Shown: positions 42,258 through 45,613 of the stretch, one piece after another
Numbering within the stretch: the first letter of the stretch is position 1
Layout: each line of letters opens with the position of its first letter
Notes under the pieces: model-generated
Databases searched by the model: none
Seen by the model: the letters and a program-made list of their open reading frames with translations, nothing else
What the model was told of the DNA's origin: nothing
NCBI RefSeq assembly: GCF_012163135.1
Contig: NZ_JAAVUP010000003.1
Coordinates: 524,283-588,282 of the forward strand
Length of the DNA stretch: 64,000 bases
DNA from: Neoroseomonas oryzicola
GTDB lineage: Bacteria > Pseudomonadota > Alphaproteobacteria > Acetobacterales > Acetobacteraceae
Direction: 5' to 3'
Translations under genes and position numbers: made by a program

Positions 42258-42815
42258 TCAGCGCCCGAGCATCGCCCGCAGCACCCGCCGCCCCTTGAGG
42301 TGATGGTGTATAGCCGCCGCCGCATGCCCCGTGGCGAGCAGCACCAGCGACCAGGCCGCGACCTCGTGCACCGGGCGGATCATCTTGTAGAGCGCCTCAT
42401 CGGCCGGCAGCAGGTGGGGCACGGGGATGAGCAGGAAGAGCGTCGTCTCGATCTCCCCCGGCGCCGTGCTGGCGGACAGGTAGCCGAGCACCGGCACCGC
42501 GATCAGCAGCAGGTACAGCACGATGTGCCCCGCGGCCGCCAGGCGGTGCTGCCAGGGCGGGATCGTCGGATCCTCGGCCGGGCGCCCGCGCCGCGCCCAC
42601 AGCCAGAGCCGCCACAGCACCAGCGGCGGCACCAGCAGCCCCAGCGTCTTGTGCACCTGGTAGGCGATGATCTTCTCGAGCAGCCGTGTCAGCGGCAGCG
42701 CGACCATCACCAGCCCGATCGCGAAGGCCGCGAGGACCAGCCCGGCGACGATCCAGTGCAGCCGGCGCTGCGCCCCGGACCAGCCGTCAGACGAGGAGGC
42801 GGACACGCACGGCAA
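42258..42815 (-). CDS. Cytochrome b561-type membrane protein
   Basis: A 185-aa inner-membrane di-heme protein. There are four hydrophobic helices with heme-ligand histidines: [15 protein letters not shown] (TM1), [20 protein letters not shown] (TM2), [19 protein letters not shown] (TM3) and [25 protein letters not shown] (TM4). Proteins of this group pass electrons from quinol to periplasmic acceptors. Its start lies inside the end of the yceI-like gene (29-base overlap), the well-known b561/YceI pairing, suggesting a joint role in periplasmic redox or lipid-isoprenoid handling. Confidence 0.92.
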
Positions 42816-43374
42816 GGCGGATGGTGTCCGAGATCGCCGCCTGGTCGGCCGTCATGCCGAACTCGGAGCGCTTCATGTCGCCGGCGGCGGAGAATTCCGC
42901 GACCTCCCGCCCCAGCGCCGGGTCCATCTTGCGCTCGAGCAGCCGCGCCTCCATCCGGTGCGGCCGGGTGATGCCGCGGATCGTCAGGTTCCCGGCGAGG
43001 AAGAAGCGCGCGAGCGTGCCTTCGCCGGTCGCCGCGCCGTCGAAGGTCGCCTCGGGGTATTTCTCCACGTCGAAGAAGGCGGGGGAGCGCAGCAGGTCGA
43101 CCGCGCCGGGATAGGCGAGTGCGACGGCCCCGGTGCGGACGGTGACCTCGACATTGGTGGTCAGCGGCCGGTCCGGATCGATGAGGAGTTCGCAGGAGAA
43201 ATCCTCGAACCGCCCGGTGGAACTGAGCACGCCGAGATGCCGGGCGACGAATTCCAGCCGGCCGACATTCTGGTCGAAGACGTAGCGGGTGCGGGCCGCC
43301 GCCGGGCGGATGAGGGGCAGGGTGCCGAGCACGCCCGCCACCAGGGTCCGCCGCCGCATCGGGATATGCGCCAT
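42787..43374 (-). CDS. Exported YceI-family lipid-binding protein
   Basis: A 195-aa periplasmic lipocalin-like protein. The N-terminus [16 protein letters not shown] looks like a twin-arginine signal. The mature barrel has [46 protein letters not shown] and [17 protein letters not shown], all YceI hallmarks. Family members bind long polyprenoid or fatty chains. It overlaps the cytochrome b561 gene. Upstream, the divergent region carries three TTCGGTCCG boxes that may regulate it. Confidence 0.92.
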
Positions 43375-43400
43375 GACAGGCCTCCTCCGGCGGCGATCAT

Positions 43401-43486
43401 TTCGGTCCGCGGCGCGCCGGTGCAAGCCCGCTTGCATGTTTCGGTCCGAAATGTCATGAAGCGGCCAACATCTCATCCGGACCGAA
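43401..43486. promoter_or_regulatory. Three evenly spaced TTCGGTCCG boxes
   Basis: TTCGGTCCG occurs at 43401-43409 and 43440-43448 on the plus strand and at 43478-43486 on the minus strand, with centres 38-39 bp apart. The middle copy extends to a full palindrome TTTCGGTCCGAAA. A TGCAAGC/GCTTGCA hairpin (43421-43436) lies between the first two. All sit in the 150-base divergent gap between yceI and rimP. They look like operator sites of an unidentified regulator. Confidence 0.55.
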
Positions 43487-43491
43487 CGGGG

Positions 43492-43519
43492 GGTGGCCTT
43501 GCAAGGGGCCGCCTTTTTT
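43492..43519 (+). terminator. Intrinsic terminator / attenuator just before rimP
   Basis: GGTGGCC pairs with GGCCGCC (one G-T wobble) around an eight-base loop that can itself pair, and is followed at once by six T residues (43514-43519). This is the only classical T-tracted terminator I find in the window. No plus-strand gene ends upstream (yceI runs the other way), so it can only act on a leader transcript of the rimP operon. It ends six bases before the presumed rimP start codon. Confidence 0.7.
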
Positions 43520-43524
43520 GTTGC

Positions 43525-44052
43525 TTGAACGACACCGCCGACCTGCCGCGGCATGACGGGCTCGAAGCCCGCATCGCCGAGGCCATCCTGCCCACCCTGA
43601 CGCATCTGGGCTACGAGCTCGTGCGCGTGCAGGTGTCGGGCAAGGAGACGCCGACCGTGCAGATCATGGCCGACCGCGCCGACGGCGCCATCTTCACCGT
43701 CGACGATTGCGAGGCGATCAGCCACGCGGTCGGCGCGGTGCTGGACGTGGCCGACCCAATCAAGTCCGAATGGACGCTCGAGGTCTCCTCGGCGGGCATC
43801 GACCGGCCGCTGACGCGCGCCAAGGACTGGAACCGCTTCGCCGGGCATGTCGCGACGCTCGAACTCGCCATCCCGCAGGACGGACGCAAGCGCTACCGCG
43901 GCATCGCGCTCGGCGCGGATGCCGAGGTCGCGCGGATGCGCCTCGACGACGGGACCGAGGTCGCGTTCCGCCGCGACAACATCCGCAAGGCCAAGCTGGT
44001 CCTGACCGACGAACTGATCGCCGCCACCGCGGCACCCCAGACGCCCAACTGA
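43525..44052 (+). CDS. rimP: Ribosome maturation factor RimP
   Basis: RimP (175 aa) assists 30S subunit assembly. Family signatures: [69 protein letters not shown] and the SH3-like C-terminal half [21 protein letters not shown]. The start is taken as TTG at 43525, matching family N-termini; there is no good Shine-Dalgarno, and the terminator-like hairpin directly before it makes initiation unusual. It heads the rimP-nusA-ylxR-infB operon. Confidence 0.93.
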
Positions 44053-44065
44053 GAGGATAGGCATC

Positions 44066-45596
<1,531 letters not shown>

Positions 45597-45613
<17 letters not shown>

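Follow-up and report, generated by a model that had tools for sequence, protein, structure and literature searches.

What is a terminator-like hairpin doing directly before the TTG start codon of rimP, where no plus-strand gene lies directly upstream? In the window analysed here, a stretch of 64,000 nucleotides from Neoroseomonas oryzicola, the two genes directly 5' of the hairpin encode a YceI-like protein and cytochrome b561, and Pfam places both on the minus strand. This bears out the earlier note's claim that there is no plus-strand gene upstream in need of a terminator. It had also placed nusA next after rimP, and Pfam confirms both RimP and NusA. Judged by RimP, the nearest named relative is Neoroseomonas marina (99% identity). 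The features of the locus are as follows.

42787-43374, minus strand: divergent YceI-like gene (Pfam)
43432-43437, plus strand: -35 element TTGCAT (motif found in relatives, position in the window read from the sequence)
43455-43460, plus strand: -10 element CATGAA, a weak match (often CATAAG or CATAAC in the genus, TATAT in the family)
43471-43479, plus strand: conserved leader strand TCTCATCCG (family consensus CATCNTCCG), complementary to the 5' arm of the hairpin; possible antiterminator
43488-43492, plus strand: G-run GGGGG (GGRGG in the family), the outer 5' arm and the sole Shine-Dalgarno-like sequence near the start
43493-43512, plus strand: core hairpin GTGGCC-TTGCAAGG-GGCCGC (fold, alignment and shuffle control)
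43514-43519, plus strand: U-tract of the intrinsic terminator, six T (sequence read and consensus scan)
43525-44052, plus strand: rimP with TTG start (Pfam RimP_N and RimP C-terminal domain; start position conserved)
44066-45613, plus strand: nusA, the candidate regulator (Pfam NusA_N, S1, KH_5, KH_2 and HHH_5, above cut-off)

The hairpin in the window

From 43488 to 43519 the sequence reads GGGGG-GTGGCC-TTGCAAGG-GGCCGC-C-TTTTTT, followed by GTTGC and then the rimP TTG at 43525. Beyond the core hairpin, the G-run (43488-43492) lies opposite C43513 and the T-run (43514-43519) and lengthens the stem. The stem-loop with a six-T tail described in the earlier note is indeed present, but its stem starts at 43488-43490 rather than at 43492, and five bases (GTTGC) separate the T-run from the TTG (43525-43527). 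The minimum free energy fold of 56 nt is a hairpin with a GCAA loop at -21.9 kcal/mol (z -2.03), and 8 of 200 shuffles are equally stable. A terminator consensus scan of 4 kb found 2 sites against 1.3 expected, so the lone sequence does not stand clearly above chance and the case rests on comparison with relatives. A 31-base hairpin pattern with up to three mismatches allowed occurs once in the 5.3-Mb genome, with no mismatch, and its backwards-read control also occurs once. Near the hairpin, an Rfam search gave no family above gathering; the window's sole match above that threshold is a small signal recognition particle RNA (RF00169, 5183-5275, minus strand, 57.8 bits). A leader peptide was considered and rejected: a short frame does begin at the GTG of GTGG in the window, but differing loop lengths change its frame from one relative to the next.

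Conservation and kinship of the leader

Our Acetobacteraceae leader set comprises 182 loci, from 80 genomes of other genera, 22 genomes of the genus (including this one) and 80 named contigs that overlap with the other family sets. Of these leaders, 153 are distinct and 152 could be anchored, with L059, L087, L090 and L094 anchored by hand; L129 was left out, its finder match lying far upstream and its leader not being located. The partial L023 was likewise left out, and L024-L030, from other families, were inspected only and stand outside the counts. The 80 genomes from other genera cover 75 genera, five of which are represented by genome pairs. Because anchoring itself requires the hairpin, finding it in 152 of 152 leaders is no result, and the fair test is the automatic finder run on the set of 80. 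There, a hairpin was found in all 80 leaders and a hairpin with a U-tract in 72, while five rounds of dinucleotide shuffles of the same set gave 13-19 and 0-1, respectively. The hairpin and U-tract before rimP are thus real, and almost letter-for-letter constant in most sampled Acetobacteraceae.

In an alignment of 81 leaders, 97.9% of stem cells are paired, compared with 49-72% when the arms are slid, though this set was anchored on GTGG and is therefore partly selected for pairing. Two-sided changes occur in three cells only and covariation is slightly beyond that of shuffles, so the stem is conserved chiefly as sequence. Among the 152 anchored leaders, 138 carry a U-tract (at least 5 T in eight). 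The other 14 have the hairpin alone (L042, L050, L057, L080, L103, L104, L138, L144, L162, L171, L172, L176, L179 and L182), and termination is therefore not kept in every leader. L171, L172, L176, L179 and L182, from Roseococcus and MAGs, have GAGGTG, a six-base anti-Shine-Dalgarno match, 5' of the hairpin.

The leader also appears to have its own promoter. In a search seeded with CTTGC and CTATAT words and confined to the region before the hairpin, the motif CTTGC-17-CTATAT has a spacer of 17 in 75 of 80 relatives, and its -10 element ends 30-40 nt before the core hairpin in 76 of 80. Transcription in the window would then start at about 43466-43468, leaving only about 50 nt up to the end of the U-tract, which is probably too short for a riboswitch-sized part. 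The same region holds TTTCGGTCCG twice and its complement CGGACCGAA once, within 43398-43453 and 43478-43486, with one copy forming the palindrome TTTCGGTCCGAAA. These repeats may serve the divergent YceI gene as an operator. We did not retain the palindrome, which lies between the rimP -35 and -10 elements, as part of the feature; it is degenerate in the closest relative and was not seen in the other genus members compared.

The genes upstream of the hairpin vary. The nearest tested gene is a minus-strand YceI in 33 of the 152 leaders and a plus-strand trmB in 31 (at 80-1409 nt), and in 88 it is none of those tested. Since the hairpin is kept next to differing upstream genes and beside minus-strand neighbours, it is part of the rimP leader and does not serve as the terminator of a preceding gene. 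A dedicated terminator for trmB was rejected in view of the promoter motif before the hairpin together with the varying upstream gene. A broader version of this idea is that the hairpin is a plain, constitutive terminator that damps transcription without regulation, conserved only to insulate rimP. Transcripts could arrive from trmB where it is the nearest tested gene, but most relatives have the promoter motif in the interval from the upstream gene to the hairpin, so that the leader's own transcripts meet the hairpin. With the hairpin also kept behind the minus-strand YceI, and its sequence conserved far past the needs of a terminator, we regard plain insulation as improbable.

Similar hairpins occur outside of the family. 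Of 101 matched genomes, we set aside the window's own, another from its family and a third whose match was weak, leaving 98 alphaproteobacterial regions, one per family, of which four stretches are short. In 74 of the 98, a terminator-like hairpin lies no more than 260 nt from where the RimP_N domain starts. With slightly shorter stretches the count is 72 of 98, against 6-14 in shuffles, and 53 with a GTGG-type motif, against 0-1. The commonest form in the other families is GTGGGCC-loop-GGCCC-U-tract. The searched stem motif is present in 56 of the 74 terminators, mostly as TGGGC..GCCC, and the window's GTGGCC..GGCCGC is related, but not identical, to the published GGGc(...)gCCC. At one stem position these other families retain U in the 5' arm opposite either A or G (U-A 26, U-G 29 and C-G 5 of 60), a pattern suggesting that the 5' strand is constrained by more than this one pairing. 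The Acetobacteraceae leader differs in having a G-run where other alphaproteobacteria carry A or G. In an uncounted reading, CCCATAGGG was seen shortly 5' of the rimP terminator in three other alphaproteobacterial leaders (L201, L232 and L252).

A rimP-leader terminator was published in 2010, in a survey in which rimP topped the attenuated genes, and its authors could do no more than suspect that a protein, for instance NusA, accounts for the conserved stem (Naville and Gautheret, PMC2965389). As described there, that leader shares with ours a G-rich 5' arm, a C-rich 3' arm, a T-stretch, conserved sequence and a place before rimP-nusA-infB. Its distance to the gene start, 4-130 nt, includes the 5 nt between T-run and TTG in the window. 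The published description names Firmicutes and Gammaproteobacteria, whereas the Acetobacteraceae form is GGRGGGUGGCC..GGCCGCC with a TTG start mostly 9-13 nt past the core. By structure and position, we take the window's hairpin to be the alphaproteobacterial form of the rimP-leader. The earlier note's assertion that the terminator acts on the rimP operon leader gains support from this likeness, from the promoter motif before the hairpin in relatives and from the constancy of the hairpin beside differing upstream genes.

Existing Rfam models do not capture this form. RF01770 (rimP), listed as gammaproteobacterial (PMC5955585), describes a leader of the same gene, and its model has no match to the window. 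At its gathering cut-off of 47 bits the covariance model found 0 of 58 alphaproteobacterial genomes, the window's own included; weak matches of 32-34 bits in 3 of the 58 are on contigs other than that of rimP, and of 14 controls only E. coli was positive. With RF02353 (BjrC68) the window shares two tandem hairpins that line up along the whole model; the second of them has a GCAA loop and a T-tail. Membership in it was rejected at 13.4 bits against a gathering threshold of 39 (E 2.5).

A start codon against the terminator

In 123 of the 152 leaders, an in-frame rimP start lies 9-13 nt past the core hairpin (119 TTG, 4 ATG). Within the set of 80, a start codon at this distance is in the rimP frame in 68 leaders (67 TTG, 1 ATG); the two remaining frames have one in 5 and 2 leaders. 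By the same criterion, the other alphaproteobacterial families have 5 of 55 in frame and open, with 3 and 9 out of frame, which is background; we use this figure because an earlier class-wide count of start distances, 0 of 56, favoured ATG/GTG starts. Conservation of the adjacent codon suggests that ribosomes use it. In 20 leaders it is the only possible start in frame from the last stop to the conserved part, and several leaders offer other in-frame starts too. Variant leaders from Falsiroseomonas, Roseomonas and MAGs (L134, L139, L143, L160, L183, L188 and L189) carry CGGGAGGTGGCCCC, with 52-69 nt from the core hairpin to the first in-frame ATG.

In Gluconobacter, of the same family, TTG accounts for 29 of 973 starts and the GGAG Shine-Dalgarno motif averages 7.9 nt from the start (PMC5756330), so a start site like that of rimP would be exceptional there. 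A term search of the main texts of the Gluconobacter RNA papers PMC5756330 and PMC6191907 found neither rimP nor nusA, and among openly licensed PMC papers we found no family-wide fusion of terminator and start site. What appears to be new here is an Acetobacteraceae terminator fused to a translation start, mostly UUG, at a nearly fixed position.

The earlier note had further proposed that the hairpin buries the ribosome-binding region. This holds for the Shine-Dalgarno-like G-run, which forms the outer 5' arm, and not for the start codon, which lies outside the hairpin. Indeed, the hairpin may aid initiation instead of blocking it. Of the 123 leaders with an adjacent start, 1 has anti-Shine-Dalgarno pairing of -4 kcal/mol or stronger between hairpin and start, whereas 122 have it directly 5' of the core (median -8.0). 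The sequence immediately before the hairpin is GGRGG in 115 of these 123 and in 7 of the 29 others; in the set of 80 the figures are 63 of 68 and 6 of 12 (Fisher p 0.001 without correction for relatedness). Leaders from other families have GGRGG in 0 of 55, and pairing at the same threshold in 10 of 55. GGRGG varies mainly by A or G at its middle position, a change that pairing with the U of CCUCC would tolerate. The 16S 3' end was found in three of four relatives searched, and not in the window's own genome.

The family leaders therefore carry their Shine-Dalgarno-like sequence immediately before the hairpin, lack one in the stretch from hairpin to start, and have a short spacing once the hairpin is bridged: 26-32 nt in linear sequence become 9-13 nt across the hairpin, and in the window 32 become 12. 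These are the marks of a split Shine-Dalgarno site. A review gives the corresponding change in phage T4 as 27 to 11 nt for gene 25 and 22 to 5 nt for gene 38 (PMC3014915), and E. coli thrS likewise has a hairpin between a Shine-Dalgarno-like sequence and the start in its split ribosome-binding site (PMC3936740). The rimP leader resembles all three in its long linear and short bridged spacing, but in those accounts the bridge is not described as a terminator. By this analogy the terminator hairpin could bridge GGRGG and the start codon, a reading that we put forward tentatively and lean slightly against. In the window's equilibrium fold most of 43488-43492 is base-paired, in part through G-U pairs, so the G-run would be hidden from the ribosome; bridging would require that these outer G-U pairs open or that the ribosome competes for the G-run.

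Could the hairpin then be mainly a translational element, through a bridged split site or a protein binding site, with termination as a by-product? The hairpin is kept in the 14 leaders that lack a U-tract, 6 of which still have a start at 10-11 nt, and both the restriction of GGRGG largely to adjacent-start leaders and the placement of the anti-Shine-Dalgarno pairing fit such a role. Yet the U-tract is retained in the great majority of leaders, the 5' flank of the core is also G-rich in family leaders without an adjacent start (24 of 29 at -4 kcal/mol or stronger), and the mostly paired G-run of the window again speaks against it. A mainly translational role thus seems unlikely, though it has more to recommend it than plain insulation.

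Probable attenuation and its candidate regulators

We consider it likely, from the sequence comparisons, that the rimP operon is attenuated by its leader terminator. RNA polymerase would start near 43467 at the leader's own promoter and yield about 50 nt of RNA; the hairpin would fold, and the U-tract would free some polymerases before rimP-nusA-infB. The poor match of the window's -10 element (CATGAA) weighs against this account. NusA, the product of the second gene, could promote folding of the hairpin in the exit channel, so that high NusA would bring more termination, a negative feedback. In B. subtilis, nusA autoregulation is described in a review as NusA-stimulated intrinsic termination in the leader (PMC12288461), and our leader is alike in having a terminator in the leader of a NusA-encoding operon. 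In E. coli, terminators t1 and t2 are reported before rimP along with self-regulation by NusA (PMC6511841). On these analogies we lean narrowly towards NusA feedback on leader termination; RimP, S1 or Rho could take the place of NusA, or there might be no regulator. In RNA that is read through, the hairpin would sit between the G-rich Shine-Dalgarno-like run and the UUG and may set their distance, so that termination and the layout of the start site would come from one hairpin.

A different switch could be built into the leader itself. The conserved strand CATCNTCCG, which closely follows the predicted transcription start, might pair with the G-rich 5' arm as soon as that arm is made. The choice between this antiterminator and the terminator would then fall to some factor, or to how fast polymerase or ribosome moves. 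The consensus is complementary to CGGRGGGUG over nine positions, and this register is the best one, with 85% of cells paired against 48-60% when slid (80% against 57-69% in a second test). Across 80 leaders the pairing energy has a mean z of -0.75 (standard error 0.13), a small excess over the -0.06 of a control region. However, covariation is absent: shuffles match the strand in 86 of 500 cases by cells paired, 305 of 500 by covariation score and 493 of 500 by pairs with two-sided changes, and another covariation test gave 533 observed against a shuffled mean of 526.7 (sd 3.3). Lineages with CACCATCCG have a mismatch in the middle of the strand, the match is weaker in the window itself, and the complementarity is absent from 55 other families (mean z -0.06). 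Among the family leaders we thus found no alternative pairing backed by covariation, as an antitermination switch would have, and a built-in antiterminator is doubtful, less probable still than a mainly translational hairpin.

Our preferred explanation, held with moderate confidence, remains an attenuator in an Acetobacteraceae-specific form of the rimP-leader, combined with NusA feedback and the start-site layout. The attenuator of the earlier note is the best reading because the hairpin matches the published rimP-leader and because NusA-stimulated leader termination is stated for B. subtilis nusA. Attenuation with NusA feedback is of an already known kind, and the terminator probably helps to set the amount of the ribosome-making and transcription proteins encoded by rimP and nusA. 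A more speculative proposal is that the Acetobacteraceae hairpin does two things, terminating the rimP-nusA-infB leader under NusA control and bridging a split Shine-Dalgarno to a weak UUG; we hold this only as a conjecture, rather more probably wrong than right. If it is true, termination and translation start would be set by one fold, giving a two-level feedback on NusA, RimP and IF2, which are themselves factors of hairpin-dependent termination and of the 30S start. In this respect the family is a natural variant: its terminator abuts the start, the position of its UUG is nearly fixed, and 14 of its leaders have the hairpin without the U-tract. It opens to direct experiment whether NusA, the ribosome or both account for the conservation of the stem.
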